This document shows, in pieces, positions 3,717 through 32,091 of a stretch of DNA of 35,242 nucleotides (the stretch's first letter is position 1; each line of letters opens with the position of its first letter). The stretch comes from a bacterium (GTDB lineage Bacteria; Patescibacteriota; Minisyncoccia; Moranbacterales; UBA2206). Made by a program: the position numbers and the translations under genes. Location: contig JAJYGF010000013.1 of assembly GCA_021785125.1 (NCBI GenBank), positions 105,413 through 140,654 on the forward strand. The letters run 5' to 3'. The notes under the pieces were generated by a model that was not told the DNA's origin, did no database searches, and saw only the letters and a list, made by a program, of their open reading frames with translations.

Positions 3717-4916
3717 ATGCAAAATGATTTATCAAACAAAATAGAGGAGATTTTAAGCCGCGGCGTGGCTGAAGTTATCGACCGGAAAAATCTCAAAAAA
3801 AGGCTTTTAAGCGGCGAGAGATTGCGCATCAAACTGGGCATCGATCCGACCAGTCCTAATCTGCACATTGGCAGGGCGGTGACACTCTTGAAGATGAAGG
3901 ATTTGCAGGATCTGGGTCACCAAATCGTTTTATTGGTCGGAGATTTCACAGGAGTTATCGGAGACGCTTCAGATAAGGAAAGCGAACGTCCGATGCTTGA
4001 CGAAGAAGTTGTTAAAAATAATTTAGCTACTTATTTCGAACAAGCTGGAAAAATTTTGGATCTGGAAAAGGTTGAAAAACATTTCAATTCCGAATGGCTT
4101 TCGAAATTAGGTTATGTCGAAATTGGCGAACAAGCCGACCAATTTTCATTGGCTGAATTCATCGCGCGTGAGAATATCAAGAAAAGATTGGATAAGGGCA
4201 CAAGAATTTCCTTGCGCGAACTTTTGTATCCGTTGATGCAGGGTTATGACAGCGTGGCTGTGAAAGCGGATCTGGAATTGGGCGGCACGGATCAAAGGTT
4301 TAATCTTTTGGCCGGACGTGAGCTGCAGAAGCATTACGGACAACAAGCCCAGGACATTTTAATGGTCAATCTGATAGAAGGGACTGATGGACGTAAGATG
4401 AGTTCCAGCTGGGGCAACACAGTCAATCTATTGGACGTTCCAAGTGATATGTTCGGCAAGATCATGAGTATTCCGGATGAATTGATCATTAAATATTTCA
4501 TTCACTGCACGCGTGTTCCGATGCAAGAAGTTGGAAAGATGGAAGAAGAAATGAAAGCAGGAAATTTGAATCCGCGCGATGCCAAATTATCTTTGGCGGA
4601 AGAAATCGTGAAATTATATCACAGCGAAACGGAGGCGGAAAAGTCGAAAGAATATTTTGTGAAGACTATTTCAAACAAGGAGACGCCTGAGGAGGTAAAG
4701 GAGGTAAGGGTTGATAAGGAAGAAATAAAATTAGTCGAGTTTTTGGTGTTGGCTGGTCTAGCAACAAGCAATGGAGACGCCAGAAGAAAGATTGAGCAAG
4801 GCGGAGTGGAAATAAACGGGCAAAAGGAAAATGATTGGCAGAAAGTGTTAACCAAAGCAGATGATGCGGCGGTTATAAAAGTTGGAAAATTCGGATTTGC
4901 TAAAATAAAATTCTAA
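3717..4916 (+). CDS. tyrS: Tyrosyl-tRNA synthetase
   Basis: This cytoplasmic class I synthetase charges tRNA-Tyr. The 399-residue product has the usual TyrRS length and order: a Rossmann catalytic core with the HIGH-type motif H50-IG-R (in DPTSPNLHIGRA) and the KMSKS-type motif K227-MSSS. A C-terminal S4 RNA-binding domain follows (about 335-395, LVLAGLATSNGDARRKIEQGG). It resembles the TyrZ-like branch, in which the catalytic core carries the IGDASD sequence. The start is chosen because the -10 box ends eight bases upstream. It is followed four bases after its stop by the tRNA-binding-domain gene, so both are probably one transcript with the PheRS-like gene. Confidence 0.96.
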   Translation: MQNDLSNKIEEILSRGVAEVIDRKNLKKRLLSGERLRIKLGIDPTSPNLHIGRAVTLLKMKDLQDLGHQIVLLVGDFTGVIGDASDKESERPMLDEEVVKNNLATYFEQAGKILDLEKVEKHFNSEWLSKLGYVEIGEQADQFSLAEFIARENIKKRLDKGTRISLRELLYPLMQGYDSVAVKADLELGGTDQRFNLLAGRELQKHYGQQAQDILMVNLIEGTDGRKMSSSWGNTVNLLDVPSDMFGKIMSIPDELIIKYFIHCTRVPMQEVGKMEEEMKAGNLNPRDAKLSLAEEIVKLYHSETEAEKSKEYFVKTISNKETPEEVKEVRVDKEEIKLVEFLVLAGLATSNGDARRKIEQGGVEINGQKENDWQKVLTKADDAAVIKVGKFGFAKIKF

Positions 4917-4920
4917 CATA

Positions 4921-5340
4921 ATGAAATTTTTATCTGATTGGTTTAAAAAAATATTTTCCGCTGAAAAGCCAGCCGTAGGGAATGCAGATCTGCGTTCTGT
5001 CGTGGTGGGAAAAATTTTGGAAATTGAAAAACATCCTAATGCTGATAGATTACAAATTGTCAAGGTAGAGACGCATAGCAATGCGTCTGTACAGGATGCA
5101 ATTCAAATTGTTTGCGGCGCAAAAAATATTACAGTTGGTCAGAAAGTTCCAGTGGCTTTAGTGGGCGCGAAATTGCCAAATGGCATGGAAATCAAAGAAG
5201 CGGAGATCCGCGGCGTGAAATCTTTTGGGATGCTGTGCGCGTCGGATGAGCTGGGATTGGGCTCGGATCACAGCGGGATTATGGTCTTGGATGAGAAAGC
5301 AGAGATAGGAAAAGAATTTTCAAAATATAAGCCATGCTAA
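4921..5340 (+). CDS. Free-standing PheT-type tRNA-binding domain protein
   Basis: This 139-residue protein has a short amphipathic N-terminus (MKFLSDWFKKIF) followed by one OB-fold EMAPII-like tRNA-binding domain (about 24-130). It matches domain B2 of PheT closely: VVGKILEIEKHPNADRLQIVKVE, IVCGAKNITVGQKVPVALVGAKLP, EIRGVKSFGMLCASDELGL. The remaining PheT domains (B1/B3/B4 editing, B5, catalytic-like core) are absent. A perfect-looking short palindrome lies in frame inside the gene (5065-5092) and adds residues around ETHSNASVQD before IVCGA. The stop codon overlaps the start of a paired-palindrome repeat (5339-5384). It sits between tyrS and a PheS/FDX-ACB fusion, so it may supply tRNA affinity in trans. 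It could also be a general tRNA-binding protein like CsaA or YtpR. Confidence 0.88.
   Translation: MKFLSDWFKKIFSAEKPAVGNADLRSVVVGKILEIEKHPNADRLQIVKVETHSNASVQDAIQIVCGAKNITVGQKVPVALVGAKLPNGMEIKEAEIRGVKSFGMLCASDELGLGSDHSGIMVLDEKAEIGKEFSKYKPC
5065..5092. repeat. Palindromic element lying in frame inside a gene
   Basis: Arms GTAGAGACGCAT (5065-5076) and ATGCGTCTGTAC (5081-5092) pair at 11 of 12 positions around AGCA. The arm resembles a short palindrome type (TAGAGACGC...GCGTCTCTA) that I recall being dispersed in many bacterial genomes; this is from memory. The reading frame of the tRNA-binding protein passes straight through it. Confidence 0.7.
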
Positions 5341-5384
5341 GGTTGAACCTTAGAAAGGCTTAGGCTCCGCAAAGGTTCAACCTT
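5339..5384. repeat. Paired palindrome (REPIN-like), 13-20-13 layout
   Basis: AAGGTTGAACCTT (5339-5351) and its exact reverse complement AAGGTTCAACCTT (5372-5384) are separated by 20 bases. Each 13-mer is itself a palindrome around one central base. The stop codon of the tRNA-binding gene (5338-5340) is partly formed by the element. A second element with the same 13-20-13 geometry but another sequence lies at 13652-13697. Confidence 0.75.
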
Positions 5385-5456
5385 GGAAGAGTTTTTTAAA
5401 TAGTCTTGTCGCAGTCGAATGTGCAAGAATAATCATTATTCAGTATTAATATATCT

Positions 5457-6599
5457 ATGAGAAAAATTGTCATCAAGGATAAGGACGAAAAAATCCTGCT
5501 AGAAGAACTTAACAAAAGGAGCGACATAAAGGCTGAACGCATTAAGAGAATGTTGGCTTTGCCGGATCTTACTAAAAGAGAAAATTCTCCTGTAAGAATT
5601 ATAAATGACAAAGTATTGGAACTTCCAAGGTTCGCTGATTTTGATATTGTTGAAATCCCGAAAATCGTGACGGTTGAGGATGATTTTGATCTGTTGAACA
5701 CACCAAAAGATCATCCAAGTAGAAGAGAGTCTGATACATATTATTTGGACGATAAACATATTCTACGTACGCAAATGACTGTAATGTGGCCGTATTATTT
5801 TCGGGATGAAGATGTTTTAGAAAGACTGAAAAAAGATGGGGAGGTTGGTTCATTGGCACCGGGAATTGTTTGGCGTAAAGACGAAATAGATAGAAAACAT
5901 TTTCCAGCATTTCATCAGACAGACTTTTTGTATGTTTGCAGAAAAGATAAGAGGATAATTACTCTTGAAGAATTGCAAGATGTCCAGGCAGACGCCGTAA
6001 AGGCAATTTTCGGTGAGGATATAGAATACAGATTTTTAGAAGATACTTTTCCGTTTACAGATCCTTCAACGCAAGTTGAAATTAATTGGCAGGGCAATTG
6101 GATTGAAATAACTGGTGCTGGTCTTGTGCATGAGAATTGTCTTAGAAACTTTGGATTAGATCCCGAAGTTTATAATGGTTGGGCTGGCACATTTGGATTA
6201 GATAGAGTTGCCATGATAAAGATGGAAATTCCTGACATCAGGATCCTTTGGTCAAATGACGAAAGGATCACGAGCCAATTCAAGGACATCAACAGCAAAT
6301 TCAAGGAAGTCAGCAAGTTTCCGGCAACAACGAGAGATATTTCATTCATTATCGACAAGAACATCAGCCTCAATAATTATTATGAAATCGTCCGGGATTA
6401 TGCCGACAATCTGATCGAGGAGGTGAAGCTTCTGGACGAATATGAAAATGAGGAAAAGTTCGGCAAGGGCAAAAAAAGCTACACTTTTCGCATCGTGTAT
6501 CGCTCATCGGAAAGGACTCTGACCAACGAAGAGATCAACAAAATACAGGCAGAGATTCGCACCAAGACCGAGAAGGAATTGGGCGCATCGCTCCGATAA
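5457..6599 (+). CDS. Single-chain phenylalanyl-tRNA synthetase-like protein (PheS core + FDX-ACB)
   Basis: This 380-residue class II synthetase joins two pieces that bacteria normally carry on separate subunits. Residues about 85-272 are a PheS catalytic core: HPSRRESDTYYL near motif 1; motif 2 GIVWRKDEIDRKHFPAFHQTDF; then EDTFPFTDPSTQVEI; and motif 3 GTFGLDRVAMIKMEIPDIR. Residues about 287-380 are an FDX-ACB anticodon-binding domain (FPATTRDISFIID to SERTLTNEEINKIQ), normally the C-terminus of PheT. The long PheS N-terminal coiled coil is reduced to about 85 residues, and no editing domain exists. This is the layout of mitochondrial PheRS, which works as a monomer. Expected reaction: ATP-dependent charging of tRNA-Phe. 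Alternatives are a PheS-related paralogue of other specificity, or a helper to an ordinary PheST elsewhere in the genome. Confidence 0.88.
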   Translation: MRKIVIKDKDEKILLEELNKRSDIKAERIKRMLALPDLTKRENSPVRIINDKVLELPRFADFDIVEIPKIVTVEDDFDLLNTPKDHPSRRESDTYYLDDKHILRTQMTVMWPYYFRDEDVLERLKKDGEVGSLAPGIVWRKDEIDRKHFPAFHQTDFLYVCRKDKRIITLEELQDVQADAVKAIFGEDIEYRFLEDTFPFTDPSTQVEINWQGNWIEITGAGLVHENCLRNFGLDPEVYNGWAGTFGLDRVAMIKMEIPDIRILWSNDERITSQFKDINSKFKEVSKFPATTRDISFIIDKNISLNNYYEIVRDYADNLIEEVKLLDEYENEEKFGKGKKSYTFRIVYRSSERTLTNEEINKIQAEIRTKTEKELGASLR

Positions 6600-6624: not shown

Positions 6625-6649
6625 GGCTGTTCGAAAGAGCAGTCTTTTT
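6625..6649 (+). terminator. Rho-independent terminator after the PheRS-like gene
   Basis: Arms 6625-6632 and 6637-6644 form an 8-bp stem (two G-U pairs) closed by a GAAA tetraloop and followed by TTTTT (6645-6649). It ends the tyrS to PheRS transcription unit just before the valS promoter. Confidence 0.8.
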
Positions 6650-6686: not shown

Positions 6687-9254
6687 ATGAAAGAAATTTC
6701 CAAACAATACGATTTTAAGGCAAAAGAGCCTAAAATATACGCAAAATGGGAGAAAAGCGGGTTTTTTAATCCTGACAATATCAAGACTGAGAAAAGATAT
6801 TCCAACATTCTTCCTCCACCAAATGCCAACGGAGAGCTTCATCTTGGCCATGCCAGCGGATATGCCGTGATGGATATTTTTGGGCGCTTTGAAAGGATGA
6901 ATGGAAAAAAGGTTTTATTGCTTCCAGGAAAAGATCATGGCGGAATTCAAACCCAGGTAGTATTTGAGAGGAAAATAAAAGAAGAAAGGGGCGTAACTCG
7001 GCACGAGCTTGGCAGAGAGAGATTTTATAAGGAATGTTATGAATTTTCAAATGGCAGTTCAAAATATATGCGTTCTCAGGAAAAAAGGATCGGAATCAGT
7101 GCGGATTGGTCACGGGAAAAATTCACGCTTGATCCTGATGTTTCCAGAATCGCATTGGAGACTTTTGTAAAGATGCATAGAGAGGAATTGGTCTACAAGG
7201 GCAATCGTATAATTAATTGGTGCCCAAGATGCGGTACGGCCCTTAGCGATATTGAAGTGATCCACAAGGAACGTGAAGGCAAATTATACTACATAAAATA
7301 TCCCATCAAAGATTCCAAGGAATTTATTATTGTTGCAACAACGCGTCCGGAAACGATGCTGGGCGACACGGCTGTGGCTGTTAATCCAAAGGACAAAAGG
7401 TATCTGAGCTTTATCGGACAAACTATTGTTTTGCCGTTGCAAGAAAAAGAAATTCCAGTGATTGCAGACAGGAGGATCGATATGGAGTTTGGGACTGGTG
7501 CAGTAAAAGTAACTCCGGCACATGATCCGCTGGACTGGCAGATCGGAAAAGACCACAAATTGGAAGAAGTGCAAGTTATCGATGAGAAAGCTCAAATCAC
7601 GGCTAATGGCGGGAAGTACGAAGGTTTGGATGTCCTTGAGGCACGCTCCAAAATCCTTTTGGATCTTGATGAATTAGGGCTCTTGGAAAAAGAAGAAGTT
7701 TTGGTAAATAATGTTTCTGCTTGTGAAAGATGCAAAACAACCATAGAACCGCTCATAAGCAAGCAATGGTTTATCAATGTTGATGCAAAAAAATATTCCA
7801 TCAAGAAAAAAACTCTCGAAGCCATCAAATCGGGAAAGTTAAATATTTATCCGGCTAGTTTGAAAAAGGTGATGATACAGTGGCTGGGCAATCTGCAAGA
7901 TTGGTGCATATCCAGACAAATTTGGTGGGGGCCACAATTTCCAGTTTGGTATAAGGGCGAGGAAATTTATGTCGGTCTAGAAGCGCCGAAAGGAGAGGGT
8001 TGGGTACAAGACGAAAATACTTTTGACGCTTGGTTCTTTTCTGGCCAATGGCCATACACGACTCTTGGGTATCCAGATAGTAAAGACTATGATGAATTTT
8101 ACCCGACCGATATGATGATAATGGGTAAAGATATCCTGTTTTTTTGGTCAGCTAGAATGTTGATGCTGAGTTTATATAGGACCGGAAAAATTCCATTTAA
8201 AAATTTATATTTCACAGGATTAGTTCGAGATAAAGACGGACATAAATTTTCTAAATCACGCGGAAATGGAATAGATCCATTGGACATGATTGATAAATTT
8301 GGGGCGGATGCATTGCGTTTGAGCTTGGTCATGGATATCGCTCCTGGTCAAGACACTAGATTGTATGAAGAAAAAATAGAAAGCTTTCGAAATTTTATAA
8401 CCAAACTCTGGAATATTTCCAAGTATTGCAAACAATCGGATGAAAAATTTGTCTTGGTTGAAAAAATCAGCAAGAAAGACCTGAAAAGCTTATCAGACAA
8501 ATGGATCATATCAGAACTCGAAGGAGTGACGAAGAAAGTGACGGATCTTATTAAGGAAAAAAACATTTCTTTGGCTCAAGATGCATTGCGCAGATTCACT
8601 TGGGACAGTTTTGCGGATTGGTACATCGAAATAAACAAATTGGAAAAAAATACAAAGGTGTTGGGATATGTTTTGGACAAGATTTTGAAATTATGGCATC
8701 CGTTCACGCCGTTTATTACTGAAGAAATATATGGCATCTTAAATAATGATGAGAAGCTTTTAATGGTTGCCAAGTGGCCGAAAAGTGAAAATAAATTTAT
8801 TGATAAAGAAGCGGAAAATAATTTTGCCGACCTGCGGGAACTGGTCGGAAAGATCAGAAACATCCGCTCGAGCTATCATATCGATCAAGCCGAACAGATA
8901 GAGGCATTCGCAGACAGAAGAATAGAAAAAGATATCATTGAAAGATTGGCACGAGTCAGGATTGAAACAGAGGGAAGGCCGAAGATCAAAATGCTGCAAT
9001 TATCCACGCGCAAAAGAAATTTCGAGCTTAACATTGCCAAATTGATAGATGTGGCCAAAGAGATCGCCTTTATGGACAAGGAAATCAAGATTTTGGAAGG
9101 GTTGATCAAGAAGAATGAAAGCATGTTGAAAAACAAGAGATTCGTGTCCGGCGCACCGGAGGAAGTGGTTGCGGCGGCCAAGGCGCGCTTGGAGGAGTAT
9201 GAGGAAAAATTGAAGATCCAGAAGGAATTGGAAAAAAATCTCCGGCGATTATAA
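6687..9254 (+). CDS. valS: Valyl-tRNA synthetase
   Basis: This cytoplasmic class I synthetase charges tRNA-Val and edits Thr-tRNA-Val. From the ATG at 6687 it has 855 residues, the usual ValRS size. It carries the HIGH-type PPPNANGELHLGHA near the N-terminus, and a zinc-type CPRCGTALS knuckle with a later CERCKTTIEP knuckle. The CP1 editing domain has TTRPETMLGDTAVAV and GTGAVKVTPAHDPLD. The catalytic KMSKS variant is KFSKSRGN, followed by the anticodon-binding helical domain. A C-terminal coiled-coil arm (KILEGLIKKNESML to KNLRRL) ends the protein. The frame is open upstream to a TTG at 6648, but that region overlaps the preceding terminator and the promoter, so the ATG is the start. It is transcribed alone, followed by the rnpB promoter. 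Confidence 0.96.
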   Translation: MKEISKQYDFKAKEPKIYAKWEKSGFFNPDNIKTEKRYSNILPPPNANGELHLGHASGYAVMDIFGRFERMNGKKVLLLPGKDHGGIQTQVVFERKIKEERGVTRHELGRERFYKECYEFSNGSSKYMRSQEKRIGISADWSREKFTLDPDVSRIALETFVKMHREELVYKGNRIINWCPRCGTALSDIEVIHKEREGKLYYIKYPIKDSKEFIIVATTRPETMLGDTAVAVNPKDKRYLSFIGQTIVLPLQEKEIPVIADRRIDMEFGTGAVKVTPAHDPLDWQIGKDHKLEEVQVIDEKAQITANGGKYEGLDVLEARSKILLDLDELGLLEKEEVLVNNVSACERCKTTIEPLISKQWFINVDAKKYSIKKKTLEAIKSGKLNIYPASLKKVMIQWLGNLQDWCISRQIWWGPQFPVWYKGEEIYVGLEAPKGEGWVQDENTFDAWFFSGQWPYTTLGYPDSKDYDEFYPTDMMIMGKDILFFWSARMLMLSLYRTGKIPFKNLYFTGLVRDKDGHKFSKSRGNGIDPLDMIDKFGADALRLSLVMDIAPGQDTRLYEEKIESFRNFITKLWNISKYCKQSDEKFVLVEKISKKDLKSLSDKWIISELEGVTKKVTDLIKEKNISLAQDALRRFTWDSFADWYIEINKLEKNTKVLGYVLDKILKLWHPFTPFITEEIYGILNNDEKLLMVAKWPKSENKFIDKEAENNFADLRELVGKIRNIRSSYHIDQAEQIEAFADRRIEKDIIERLARVRIETEGRPKIKMLQLSTRKRNFELNIAKLIDVAKEIAFMDKEIKILEGLIKKNESMLKNKRFVSGAPEEVVAAAKARLEEYEEKLKIQKELEKNLRRL

Positions 9255-27280: not shown

Positions 27281-28174
27281 ATGGCAATTTCAAATCTCAT
27301 CAAAAAGCGCATTCAAGCGCTCAAAAAAGAATATGACGCCTTGAGGAAAGGCAAAGAGTCGCTTTTGACTATGATTGATGAGGCTGAGGTGCCGGAGAAT
27401 GTCTACAACTCCAATGCGATCGAAAATTCAACGCTAACTCTCAAGGAAACCGAAAAGATTTTGCTGGAAATGGAAGTTCAAAGAGATGTGAGTGTCCGTG
27501 AAGTATTTGAGGCAAAGAATCTGGCGCGTGTCATGGCATATATCAGGACAAAATCGCAAGAAAAAGAGGTTGATAAGGAAACAATCTTGTTGTTGCATCA
27601 GATGCTGATTGGAGGTATCGATGATAATATTGCCGGACGTTTTCGAAAACAACATGAGTATGTTCGTGTTGGTACGCATATAGCACCCGCGCCGGAACAT
27701 ATCGAACTGATGATAAGTTCAATCTTATCAGAATATTCAAATGATATAGAATCATATTTTTTGGATAAAATTGCCAAATTTCATTTGGATTTTGAAACCA
27801 TCCATCCTTTCAATGATGGCAATGGCCGCATTGGCCGAGCTTTGATCTGTTATCAGTTGTTGCGATTGGGCTTGGAGCCGATTATCATTCGTGACAAAGA
27901 AAAAGCGACATATTACAAAGCATTTACGGATTATCGGGAAAATAAAAACACCAAAACGATGGAAAAAGTCTTGTCACTGGCTTTGATGGAATCGTTGCAC
28001 AAGAGAATCACGTATCTCAAGGGTGAGAAAATAATCACGCTTTCCGATTATGCGAAAAAACAAGAGGTGTCAGCACCGGCAATTTTCAACGCCGCCAGGC
28101 GACAGAGCATTCCGGCTTTTCGAGAGCGAGGCGTTTGGAAAATTGGCGCGGGATTCAAGTATGACAAGAAATAA
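27281..28174 (+). CDS. Fic-domain protein, class II (auto-inhibited), with C-terminal DNA-binding-like tail
   Basis: This 297-residue AMP-transferase-type protein carries the Fic motif H175-PFNDGNGRIGR, complete for catalysis. The inhibitory helix motif S44-NAI-E48-N49 (S/T-x3-E-N) lies before the Fic fold, which defines class II, the type held inactive by its own N-terminal helix. The C-terminal ~50 residues (ITLSDYAKKQEVSAPAIFNAARRQSIPAFRERGVWKIG) look like a winged-helix or excisionase-type DNA-binding unit. The protein could therefore bind its own promoter operators. It is transcribed alone: it has its own consensus promoter and a strong terminator before hsdR. The leader is about 20 bases without a Shine-Dalgarno site. 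Target proteins are unknown. Confidence 0.92.
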   Translation: MAISNLIKKRIQALKKEYDALRKGKESLLTMIDEAEVPENVYNSNAIENSTLTLKETEKILLEMEVQRDVSVREVFEAKNLARVMAYIRTKSQEKEVDKETILLLHQMLIGGIDDNIAGRFRKQHEYVRVGTHIAPAPEHIELMISSILSEYSNDIESYFLDKIAKFHLDFETIHPFNDGNGRIGRALICYQLLRLGLEPIIIRDKEKATYYKAFTDYRENKNTKTMEKVLSLALMESLHKRITYLKGEKIITLSDYAKKQEVSAPAIFNAARRQSIPAFRERGVWKIGAGFKYDKK

Positions 28175-28177
28175 AAG

Positions 28178-28203
28178 AATCGGGGGCAACCCTGATTTTT
28201 TTT
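28178..28203 (+). terminator. Terminator after fic
   Basis: AATCGGGG (28178-28185), GCAA tetraloop, CCCTGATT (28190-28197) with one G-T pair, then a T run to 28203. Confidence 0.85.
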
Positions 28204-28237
28204 GTCGCTTGGATGAACCGCTTGCTTCCGCCAAAAA

Positions 28238-28267
28238 CTGGACCAAAGGCGGTTTTGGGCGTAAAAT
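28238..28267 (+). promoter_or_regulatory. hsdR promoter, GGCGTA-type
   Basis: CTGGAC (28238-28243), 18-base spacer with GGCGGTTTTGGGCG, TAAAAT (28262-28267). The ATG at 28292 is 24 bases later. The spacer resembles those of tspO, the iron-sulfur flavoprotein and radC. Confidence 0.5.
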
Positions 28268-28291
28268 AGAGATAATGTAAACGGCAAATCT

Positions 28292-30664
28292 ATGGCAAAC
28301 AAAACACTTTCCGAACAAGACATCTGCACCAAATTCATTGTTCCAGCTATTGAAAAAGCGGGTTGGGACAAGATAACGCAATTGCGTGAGCAGGTGTCTT
28401 TTACGGCTGGCAGAATTATAGTGAGTGGAAAAATCACAAAGCGTGGCGAAGCCAAGCGAGCAGATTTTGTTTTGTATCATGAGCCAAATTTTGCAATTGC
28501 TGTGATTGAAGCCAAAGATGGCAATCAATCGATTGGCAGTGGTATGCAACAGGCTATTAGCTATGCAGAGGCGCTGGACGTTCCTTTTGCATACAGTTCC
28601 AATGGAGATGGATTCTTGGAGCATGATTTTCTAACTGGCCAAGAACGGCAATTGAAGATGGATGAACTGCCTGGACCGGAAGAATTATATCAGCGCTACA
28701 AGATTGCCAATAAAATCGAAGAAAAAGTTGAAACGGCGATTCGCACGCCATATTATTCTGATAATTCCAACAAAAAGCCGCGATATTATCAGGAAGTTGC
28801 TATTAATCGGGCTGTGAAAGCGGTGGCAGAAGGCAGGAAGAGAAATCTTCTTGTGATGGCGACGGGAACCGGAAAAACATATGTGGCTGGACAAATTATT
28901 TGGCGACTTTGGAAAGCGGGCATTGCCAAGAGGATTCTTTTTCTGGCGGACCGCAATATTTTGGTCGATCAAACCATGGTGAATGACTTCAAACATTTTG
29001 GCGACAAGATGACCAAAGTCAAAAACCGTCAGATTGATAAAGCGTATGAAATATATTTGGCACTTTATCAAGGCATCACGGGCAACGAGGAAGAAAGAAA
29101 TGCCTACCGACAATTTAGTCCGGACTTTTTTGATCTGATTGTGGTGGATGAGTGTCATCGCGGAGTTTCTTCTGATGATTCGGCTTGGCGTGAAGTTTTG
29201 GAATATTTCAAATCTGCGACTCACATTGGTCTCACAGCCACTCCCAAAGAAACCAGGGATGCATCAAACATTGAATATTTTGGCGAGCCAATTTACACCT
29301 ATTCGCTCAAGCAAGGAATTGAGGATGGATTTCTGGCACCCTACAAAGTTATTCAAATAATGCTCGATAAGGACTTGGGTGGGTATCGTCCGGCCATCGG
29401 GGATCGTGACACGGAAGGCCGAGAAATCGAAGATCGAATTTATACTGACAAAGATTTTGATAAAAATTTGGTTTTGGTTGAAAGAACAAAAACTGTCGCC
29501 AAGGAAATCACCAAATATTTGAAACAAACCGATCGTTTTGCCAAAACTATCGTTTTTTGCGTGGATATTGATCATGCAGAAAGAATGCGACAGGCCTTGG
29601 TGAATGAAAATGCGGATCTGGTCAAAGAAAATCCGAAATACGTGATGCGCATCACGGGCGACAATGAGGAAGGTAAGAAAGAACTGGATAATTTCATCAA
29701 CCCGGAAAGTCTGTATCCAACGATTGTGACTACAAGCAAGCTTTTGACGACTGGTGTGGACGCGCAGACTTGCAAGAATGTGGTTTTGGATTCCAACATC
29801 AAATCCATGACGGAATTCAAACAAATCATCGGACGTGGTACGCGTATTCGCGAAGATTATGATAAAACCCATTTCACAATTTTGGATTTTCGCAAAGTGA
29901 CTGAGCTTTTTGCGGATCCTGATTTTGATGGTCCGCCGGAACAAGTGAAGGAAGTGAAACCTGGGCAGGCGCCGGTAGATTATACCGAACAAATCGAGAC
30001 TGGTGCTGATGTGATTCATGAACCAACTCCGGAATATGGAACGTCGGAAAAGCCAACCATCGTTTCCGGAGGAGAAATTGAAAAAGAGAAGCCAAACAAA
30101 ATTTTTGTGGATGATGTGCCGGTAGAAGTGGCCTACAAACGGGTGCAATACTTGGACGGAGATGGCAAACTGATCACTGAGTCGCTGAAGGATTACACAA
30201 AAACGAAAATCTTGCAGGAATATGCTTCCCTCGATGATTTCTTGCAAAAATGGGACAAGGCCAAGCAGAAATATTACATTATCGAAGAACTGGAAAAGCA
30301 GGGAGTGATGATTGAAGAATTGCAGCAAAGCATTGGTGATCTCGGATCGGAGTTGGATCCGTTTGACTTGATTTTGCATGTGGCTTTTGACAAACAAAAG
30401 TTGACGACACGCAAAGAAAGAGCGGAAAAAGTCAGAAAGAGCAATTATTTACAAAAATATAATGGCCAGGCCAAGGAGGTGATCAATGCGCTTCTGGATA
30501 AGTATGCCGATCAAGGCATCACGGCTATTGATGACATTGGTGATTTGACGGTCACGCCTTTTGTGCAGTTTGGCACGCCAATTCAAATTGTGAATGATAT
30601 TTTCGGCGGGAAAGAAAAATATTTGGAAGTGGTTAATCAAATTCAAAAAGAAATTTACGCTTAA
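28292..30664 (+). CDS. hsdR: Type I restriction endonuclease subunit R
   Basis: This 790-residue motor and nuclease subunit of a type I restriction-modification complex translocates DNA with ATP and cuts it. The N-terminal PD-(D/E)xK nuclease has D58 (RADFVLYHE) and E73-A-K75 (AVIEAKDGNQ), followed by the QAISYAEALDVPFAYSSNG region. The superfamily 2 helicase core has Walker A ATGTGKT with K195, the DEAD-type box D286-ECH, motif III LTATP, and motif VI IGRGTR. The C-terminal part belongs to the EcoEI-like R family. The stop is followed after 11 bases by hsdM, so they are one operon. No hsdS is present in the window, yet the complex needs it for target choice. Confidence 0.96.
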   Translation: MANKTLSEQDICTKFIVPAIEKAGWDKITQLREQVSFTAGRIIVSGKITKRGEAKRADFVLYHEPNFAIAVIEAKDGNQSIGSGMQQAISYAEALDVPFAYSSNGDGFLEHDFLTGQERQLKMDELPGPEELYQRYKIANKIEEKVETAIRTPYYSDNSNKKPRYYQEVAINRAVKAVAEGRKRNLLVMATGTGKTYVAGQIIWRLWKAGIAKRILFLADRNILVDQTMVNDFKHFGDKMTKVKNRQIDKAYEIYLALYQGITGNEEERNAYRQFSPDFFDLIVVDECHRGVSSDDSAWREVLEYFKSATHIGLTATPKETRDASNIEYFGEPIYTYSLKQGIEDGFLAPYKVIQIMLDKDLGGYRPAIGDRDTEGREIEDRIYTDKDFDKNLVLVERTKTVAKEITKYLKQTDRFAKTIVFCVDIDHAERMRQALVNENADLVKENPKYVMRITGDNEEGKKELDNFINPESLYPTIVTTSKLLTTGVDAQTCKNVVLDSNIKSMTEFKQIIGRGTRIREDYDKTHFTILDFRKVTELFADPDFDGPPEQVKEVKPGQAPVDYTEQIETGADVIHEPTPEYGTSEKPTIVSGGEIEKEKPNKIFVDDVPVEVAYKRVQYLDGDGKLITESLKDYTKTKILQEYASLDDFLQKWDKAKQKYYIIEELEKQGVMIEELQQSIGDLGSELDPFDLILHVAFDKQKLTTRKERAEKVRKSNYLQKYNGQAKEVINALLDKYADQGITAIDDIGDLTVTPFVQFGTPIQIVNDIFGGKEKYLEVVNQIQKEIYA

Positions 30665-30675
30665 AATAAAAAAAT

Positions 30676-32091
30676 ATGACCCTTGAAACAGCCGTCAAGG
30701 CTATCCAAGATATTATGTGGAAGGACGAAGGCGTTGATGGAGACGCTCAACGTCTTTCGCAATTGGTCTGGATGCTTTTCTTGAAAATTATTGACGATCA
30801 GGAAAAGCAGTCAGAATTCATTCATGACAACTATCGTTCGCCGATTCCGGAAAAATTGCGCTGGCGCCATTGGGCGGCTGATCCGGAAGGCATGACAGGC
30901 GATGAGCTTTTGGATTTCATCAATAACAAACTTTTCCGCGAGCTCAAAAACTTGAAAACCTATGATAAGCTGGGTGAATTGGTCAAAGAGATTTTCAATG
31001 ACACTTTCAACTATATGAAATCCGGCACGTTGATTCGCCAGGTGGTGAACAAGCTCAATGAAGTGGATTTCAACAAAGCGGATGATCGGCATCATTTCAA
31101 TGAAGTTTATGAATCCCTTTTGAAAAGTTTGCAAAGCGCCGGCAATTATGGCGAGTTCTACACGCCGCGCGCGCTCACTGGTTTTGTGGTGGACATGGTT
31201 GATCCAAAATTGGGTGAAACGGTTTTGGATCCGGCTTGCGGCACCGGCGGATTTTTGGTGCATGCTATCGATCATGTTCGCAAAGAAGTCAAAACCAAAA
31301 AAGACGAACAACTTTTGCAAAAATCTATTCATGGTGTAGAGCTCAAGCAATTGCCGTTTACTTTGGCGGTGGCTAATTTAATTTTGCACGGCGTCAATGT
31401 GACGGATCAAATTGAGCGCGGTGACAAATTATCAAGACCCCTATATGATTATGGTCCCAAAGATCGCGTGGATGTGATTGTGGCCAATCCGCCATTTGGC
31501 GGCAGTGTGAAAGACGGCACGCAAGCTAATTTTCCTTTGGAATTTCGCACCAAAGAAACAGCCGATCTATTTCTGGTGCTGTTTATTCAACTCTTGAAAC
31601 CGAATGGACGAGCGGGCATCGTTTTGCCGGATGGCACACTTTTTGGCGAAGGTGTGAAAACGTCAATCAAGAAAAAACTTTTGCAGGAATGTAATTTGCA
31701 TACGATCGTGCGTTTGCCGCAAGGAGTTTTCAATCCGTATGCCGGCGTGAATACGAATTTACTATTCTTTCAAAAAGGTAATCCAACCAAAGAAGTGTGG
31801 TTCTATGAATTGCCGCTGCCGGAAGGGATGAAACAATATACCAAGAATCGAGGCATCCGACCGGAGGAATTTGAACCGGTGAAAAAATGGTGGCAGAATC
31901 GCAAGACAAATGACAACGCATGGAAAGTCTCGATCAAAGAGATTGAAGCGAGAAATTTCAATCTAGATTTCAAAAATCCCAGCAAAAATGGCGCGGTGGA
32001 ACATAATGATCCGAAGGAGATTTTGGAGGGGATTATGCAAAAAGAAAGCGATATTCTAGGTATATTGGGAGAAATAAGAGAAAAATTGTGA
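30676..32091 (+). CDS. hsdM: Type I DNA methyltransferase subunit M
   Basis: This 471-residue N6-adenine methyltransferase subunit protects host DNA within the HsdRMS complex. The N-terminal helical HsdM_N domain (about 5-135) precedes the N6_Mtase domain. Motif I is D185-PACGTGGFL and motif IV N271-PPFGG, with GELKQ-type spacing between and GIVLPDGTLFGEG after. The C-terminal tail from about residue 436 (SKNGAVEHNDPKEILEGIM) is present a second time in the same reading sense at 34050-34160, beyond the AbiE genes. The expected partner hsdS is missing directly downstream, where instead the AbiE promoter begins 25 bases after the stop. Confidence 0.96.
   Translation: MTLETAVKAIQDIMWKDEGVDGDAQRLSQLVWMLFLKIIDDQEKQSEFIHDNYRSPIPEKLRWRHWAADPEGMTGDELLDFINNKLFRELKNLKTYDKLGELVKEIFNDTFNYMKSGTLIRQVVNKLNEVDFNKADDRHHFNEVYESLLKSLQSAGNYGEFYTPRALTGFVVDMVDPKLGETVLDPACGTGGFLVHAIDHVRKEVKTKKDEQLLQKSIHGVELKQLPFTLAVANLILHGVNVTDQIERGDKLSRPLYDYGPKDRVDVIVANPPFGGSVKDGTQANFPLEFRTKETADLFLVLFIQLLKPNGRAGIVLPDGTLFGEGVKTSIKKKLLQECNLHTIVRLPQGVFNPYAGVNTNLLFFQKGNPTKEVWFYELPLPEGMKQYTKNRGIRPEEFEPVKKWWQNRKTNDNAWKVSIKEIEARNFNLDFKNPSKNGAVEHNDPKEILEGIMQKESDILGILGEIREKL
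31983..32034 (+). repeat. Left copy of a 52-bp direct repeat (hsdM 3' end)
   Basis: This stretch inside the last codons of hsdM matches 34052-34103 at 51 of 52 positions; the only difference is A32001 against G34070. The offset is 2069 bases, and the AbiE pair lies between the copies. Confidence 0.95.

Follow-up and report, generated by a model that had tools for sequence, protein, structure and literature searches.

Bacterial phenylalanyl-tRNA synthetase (PheRS) has been described as a heterotetramer conserved in all known species, with the monomeric form confined to mitochondria (PMC3275996, 2010). The latter, named PheRS-M (PMC11580382), also known as FARS2 or MSF1 (PDB:3CMQ, 3TUP), carries the catalytic core and a C-terminal FDX-ACB domain on one chain and has no editing domain. 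It reads G34, A73, and G1–C72 of its tRNA (PMC9976931); in the human enzyme, Asp364, Phe366, Ser375, and Arg414 bind G34 (PMC7540514), and Gln124 and Glu159 bind the hydroxyl of m-tyrosine (PMC3275996). The same architecture is seen in SrmL, the “PheS-related mystery ligase” (NF051887), which occurs on plasmids and in a huge phage, and in single-chain PheRS encoded by large viral contigs from IMG/VR. Single OB-fold tRNA-binding domains encoded alone are known as YtpR, TapR, or Trbp111. Many PheT proteins of CPR bacteria have no B2 domain, and B2 has been found fused to TyrRS or LysRS (PMC5370408). We found no earlier report of a bacterial single-chain PheRS in the open-access papers searched; databases may already list these proteins under “PheS” names.

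The window, i.e., the whole stretch of 35,242 nucleotides analyzed here, comes from a Patescibacterium with a 0.92-Mb genome (24 contigs, estimated 100% complete), which belongs to a family whose named members are Candidatus Moranbacteria. The locus contains the following features.

3717..4916, + strand: tyrS, tyrosyl-tRNA synthetase (TIGR00234, 343 bits; synteny)
4921..5340, + strand: gene of a lone B2 (tRNA-binding OB-fold) domain, 139 aa (PF01588; TIGR00472 positions 41–153)
5070..5087, + strand: palindromic insert GACGCATAGCAATGCGTC within the B2 reading frame (element 5065–5092)
5341..5456, + strand: spacer between the B2 and PheRS genes with an inverted repeat (arms 5339–5351 and 5372–5384)
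5457..6599, + strand: single-chain phenylalanyl-tRNA synthetase (PheS core and FDX-ACB), 380 aa
5568..6281, + strand: class II catalytic core, residues 38–275 of PheRS (PF01409)
6312..6596, + strand: FDX-ACB anticodon-binding domain, residues 286–380 of PheRS (PF03147)
6625..6644, + strand: intrinsic-terminator-like hairpin, then TTTTTG (consensus match only)
6687..9254, + strand: valS, valyl-tRNA synthetase (NF004349, 971 bits; synteny)

The B2 gene starts after a gap of 4 bp from tyrS, and valS comes after the PheRS gene. The spacer between B2 and PheRS, given above for this genome, is 11–22 bp in the other Moranbacteria measured. The hairpin is the probable end of a tyrS–B2–PheRS unit. Elsewhere in the window, at 27281–32091, lie Type I restriction-modification genes of the HsdR type (28292–30664) and the HsdM type (30676–32091), with a gene for a Fic-domain protein (27281–28174) just upstream.

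The earlier note, made from the letters of the window, had claimed that one gene joins a PheS core to FDX-ACB and that the preceding gene is a lone PheT-type B2 domain, and both observations stand. In the Pfam profile search of the 380-aa protein, PF01409 (E 3.9e-50) is followed directly, on the same chain, by PF03147 (E 2.2e-27). About 100 further sequences from Patescibacteria contain the fused ORF intact, at 371–413 aa, and thus it is not due to chance. In profile comparison, human mitochondrial PheRS scores 270 bits, against 180 bits for the best bacterial alpha subunit. Similarly, the top seven PDB matches to the AlphaFold2 model (pLDDT 94, pTM 0.90) are structures of human mitochondrial PheRS, the best one extending over the whole length (TM 0.79, rmsd 2.9). 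The score with the equivalog model for mitochondrial PheRS proper (TIGR00469, pheS_mito) is 248.4 bits, just under the cut-off of 258.35 bits, and so the protein is filed as a sister lineage rather than a member. Unlike the mitochondrial enzyme, it is encoded by a bacterial chromosomal gene and is predicted to be the only PheRS of its cell. Compared with canonical PheS2PheT2, which has a homologous catalytic core and anticodon-binding domain and occupies the same locus in relatives, it carries both domains on one chain, and the body of PheT is absent.

Family profile searches of the whole genome revealed no second PheS (the other PF01409 matches are two weak ones, to class II synthetases that are HisRS and LysRS by sequence), no B5 (PF03484), no B3/B4 editing domain (PF03483), and no FDX-ACB beyond that of the single-chain PheRS. 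Hence the absence of the rest of PheT, noted earlier for the window, extends to the entire genome, and the search for standard pheS and pheT then suggested finds neither. What the genome has in place of the canonical enzyme, with its PheT subunit containing B3/B4 and B5, is a single-chain PheRS in a cell without the B3/B4 domain. The gene of tRNA-Phe(GAA) was missed by ARAGORN and found after a permissive covariance search at L201:5110–5467 (G000:C4, minus strand), with a group I intron (RF00028, 66.8 bits) inserted in its anticodon loop. The joined exons contain anticodon GAA, G1–C72, and A73, the junction between U33 and G34 being our reading; in a relative with the same single-chain enzyme, tRNA-Phe is uninterrupted (L248:2294–2366). 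Since tRNA-Phe is present and no other PheS, B5, or B3/B4 is encoded, the 380-aa protein is almost certainly the only phenylalanyl-tRNA synthetase of this genome, as judged from gene content.

Among 55 genomes, comprising this one and relatives, eight carry the fused gene and lack separate PheS and PheT, which nearly all the others possess; in the phylum, the fused gene occurs in 33 out of 380 sampled Patescibacteria genomes. The domain B5 is present in none of 40 single-chain genomes and in 25 out of 25 genomes taken as canonical, the comparison set leaving out two incomplete relatives that show no B5 (G006 and G020); for B3/B4, the respective counts are zero out of 40 and eight out of eight. 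The possibility that pheS–pheT was missed through incomplete assembly is rejected on account of the lack of PheT domains in all 40 single-chain genomes, many of them estimated to be 95–100% complete. Named carriers include Staskawicz-, Nealson-, Yanofsky-, Taylor-, Ryan-, Wolfe-, Jorgensen-, Specht-, and Moranbacteria, the genome-by-genome sampling covering draft genomes of Patescibacteria. Collections of plasmids and phages yielded no close relative of this PheRS; SrmL and canonical PheS were found there. SrmL-type ligases or their likely relatives occur in L188, L189, L190, and L200 (L200 not model-checked); their carriers are a 635-kb phage and plasmids, and in two of the plasmids resistance genes are close by (Cmx-type efflux; erm(X) and tet(65)).

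Residue conservation was scored over 105 single-chain sequences. The class II arginines R140 (motif 2) and R250 (motif 3) are kept, as are the FP(F/Y) floor of the phenylalanine pocket, E217, G220 and G222 (GxG), and A243; Q154 is present in 104 sequences. The counterparts of the G34-binding residues Asp364, Phe366, Ser375, and Arg414 of the human enzyme, which are D327, Y329, S341, and R380 in this protein, are essentially invariant (Asp in 105 out of 105, Tyr or Phe, Ser in 105 out of 105, and Arg in 103 out of 105, respectively). Two pocket positions differ from both bacterial and mitochondrial PheRS: all 105 sequences have Trp where the human enzyme has Gln124 (in the ungapped alignment; other alignments are off by one position), and in place of human Glu159, 94 sequences have Asp and 11 have Gly. 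Due to these two differences, the specificity cannot be read from the pocket with certainty. Thus, the pocket comparison proposed in the earlier note shows the floor, GxG, and class II arginines to be kept and two positions to be changed; that a tighter pocket might substitute for proofreading is a testable idea and no more.

In trees of the core and FDX-ACB, single-chain enzymes are split from PheS plus PheT at 100/100, and the Patescibacterial single-chain clade (100/99) has as its sister group the human enzyme together with sequences from large viral contigs (100/99), mitochondria being represented by a single, partial human sequence. The tree suggested earlier thus sets the single-chain forms apart from canonical PheRS and beside the mitochondrial one. 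In the first tree, which included SrmL, the human enzyme was in an unresolved fork with long branches; the tree was resolved without SrmL, also after addition of the viral sequences, with which the long-branch warning disappeared. Viral single-chain PheRS are 34–40% identical to the enzyme described here, group with the human mitochondrial enzyme and not with the Patescibacterial clade, and the three tested all pass the mitochondrial model. The viral contigs encoding mitochondrial-type single-chain PheRS (L263–L284, IMG/VR) are up to 536 kb long; some of their enzymes look close to the eukaryotic one, and a separate set has HMTCYLYP in the pocket region.

The FDX-ACB domain of this PheRS is 27–36% identical to those of PheT; across the single-chain family, identity to human mitochondrial FDX-ACB is 30–43%, and that between the human mitochondrial and PheT domains is 16–32%. 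These data indicate that the core–FDX-ACB chain, acquired laterally, belongs to an old single-chain type with kinship to mitochondrial PheRS. The simplest reading of the trees is that the single chain arose once, which should be taken as provisional given one partial mitochondrial sequence.

The canonical gene order in the family is DsbA-like – tyrS – pheS – pheT – valS – sugar transferase (complete in G003, partial in G018 and G021), and in this genome and in G017, B2 and the single-chain gene replace pheS and pheT, the flanks being unchanged. Same-genus pairs with the two states are G021/G012 in the tyrS–valS context and G022/G013 and G007/G026 in a second context. The flanking genes are the family's own, and so contamination is not the explanation. 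In the tree, which comprises 104 enzymes, those of Moranbacteria occupy five separate positions, as forced by the starred branches, beside enzymes of other Parcubacteria; the nearest matches to this PheRS among named Parcubacteria are 60–84% identical. The five placements are most directly read as repeated lateral acquisition or exchange. In G008 (L012/L185), the single-chain PheRS is very divergent (51% identity, long branch), and its gene is convergent to the tyrS–B2 pair rather than following it.

The 139-aa product of the preceding gene matches PF01588 (tRNA_bind, E 1.2e-19), and its best NCBIfam match is the PheT N-terminus (TIGR00472, profile positions 41–153 of 798, 149 bits), which is also the first match among solved structures; the AlphaFold2 model consists mostly of beta strands, and pLDDT exceeds 90 for most of the domain. 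The only B2 homologue of canonical relatives is the PheT N-terminus, mostly in frames of about 800 aa (50–76% identity; 58–76% for Moranbacterial PheT). Single-chain relatives encode B2 by itself; the gene has decayed in G026 and is gone from G002 and G015. The lone Moranbacterial copies end just past the B2 domain and form one group within the diversity of Moranbacterial PheT (99/96 in the B2 tree), which suggests one truncation and subsequent spread. An origin of each stump from the PheT of its own genus, for which an insert common to G013 B2 and G022 PheT could speak, is countered by this grouping; forcing G013 together with G022 gave p 0.03, and the other forced groupings p 0.09–0.10. Under single truncation and spread, the common insert would need recombination or repeated insertion. 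On these identities and the tree, we regard the lone B2 gene as a remnant of the lineage's own PheT.

One site in several Moranbacterial PheT or B2 genes is occupied by inserts that differ from gene to gene. Palindromic elements of the form GACGCAT..ATGCGTC are found in the B2 frame, at 5339–5384 of the window, and near a tRNA gene (L201:5003–5017). These elements and inserts call to mind the protein-coding palindromic repeats of Rickettsia.

A distant family likewise has a lone B2 gene in front of the single-chain gene, the two overlapping or being separated by short spacers, and exactly one B2 is present in 20 out of 22 genomes of that family. The lone copies of this type are 45–66% identical to the B2 of G166, the one genome in which it lies in an 811-aa PheT frame, and 32–41% identical to a Moranbacterial PheT. 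Thus PheT was probably reduced to B2 at least twice, each time beside a single-chain enzyme, and such repetition argues for use of the domain. In G166 (L285), a 531-aa open frame lies between pheS and pheT, which are close together in most relatives. Most carriers of the Staskawicz type have no B2 in the stretch read beside the single-chain gene; as some single-chain genomes lack it or have only a decayed copy, and it was not found beside most other family members, B2 is not essential for the enzyme. Most likely, it would be a trans-acting auxiliary tRNA-binding protein for the single-chain PheRS.

A PheS-related paralogue with a new role, envisaged in the earlier note, would be an SrmL-type ligase for another substrate, with tRNA-Phe charged by a canonical PheRS missed in assembly. 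SrmL has the same core–FDX-ACB architecture, and its model gives this protein 252.4 bits, about as much as the mitochondrial one; however, this is below the cut-off of 300 bits, reference SrmL score 423–524 bits, and the three SrmL examined have HPY or HYY for FPF and ECG for GxG, both motifs being kept here. As PheT domains are also missing from all 40 single-chain genomes, even the nearly complete ones, and conservation extends to the residues of both the catalytic site and anticodon recognition, we find this reading hardly credible. We give next to no credence to fusion of the local PheS in place to the C-terminal end of the local PheT by one deletion: the gene does lie at the pheS–pheT locus beside a PheT fragment, but it comes after the fragment, not before it, shares only about 25–33% identity with PheS and the PheT ends of the family itself, compared with the far higher identity to named Parcubacteria, and belongs to the clade parted from canonical PheRS with full support. 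The alternative put forward earlier, of a reduced bacterial PheRS retaining the two tRNA-binding ends of PheT, is well supported as regards the reduction, as neither PheS nor PheT is encoded elsewhere and the functional residues are conserved, and as regards the lone B2, but not as regards FDX-ACB, given its low identity to PheT.

Chance adjacency of an unrelated free-standing protein of the YtpR or Trbp111 type is very unlikely as an account of B2. The protein does exceed the YtpR cut-off (133.8 vs. 100 bits), yet the alignment is confined to the second half of that model (positions 80–185 of 185), the N-terminal half of YtpR being absent, and scores higher with PheT; moreover, it sits in the pheT position, resembles Moranbacterial PheT N-termini closely, and genomes carry at most one B2-type domain, within PheT or alone. 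To the reading of B2 as a dying relic without function, the single chain alone being important, we attach appreciable weight, short of an even chance. The decay and losses listed above and its absence beside most family members agree with it, and human mitochondrial PheRS needs no B2, but the intact ORFs show strongly constrained amino acid changes (dN 0.14–0.22, dS near or at saturation), part of which constraint may date from before the truncation, and the arrangement with short spacers or overlaps recurs in a second lineage, from its own PheT.

Taking all this into account, we are highly confident in the explanation as a whole, namely, a sole, mitochondrial-like, laterally acquired PheRS with B2 kept as an auxiliary. 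The laterally gained chain has displaced pheS and the greater part of pheT, of which the stretch for the N-terminal B2 domain survives as a separate gene just upstream. The enzyme, likely a monomer, would use ATP to activate phenylalanine, its site being of class II and PheS type, and the hinged C-terminal FDX-ACB would read G34 of tRNA-Phe, B2 most likely helping in trans by binding tRNA; misacylated tRNA would meet no proofreading domain in the cell. A broader scenario, rather doubtful as a whole, is that a split minimal PheRS (the single chain and a trans-acting B2 subunit from the host PheT) evolved at least twice in Patescibacteria, with the loss of proofreading offset by a remodelled pocket (Gln to Trp, Glu to Asp) excluding tyrosine at activation, and that this single-chain stock, bacterial or viral, also gave rise to the mitochondrial enzyme.

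A bacterial single-chain PheRS that is the only one in its cell and sister to the mitochondrial form suggests another, concrete source from which mitochondrial PheRS may have arisen, and a small single-gene bacterial PheRS becomes available for engineering. The repeated swap, of which a PheT fragment remains, clearly exemplifies how an essential synthetase can be replaced by another form of itself. For the bacteria themselves, it would imply that entire proteomes are synthesized with no PheRS to proofread Tyr-tRNA-Phe.
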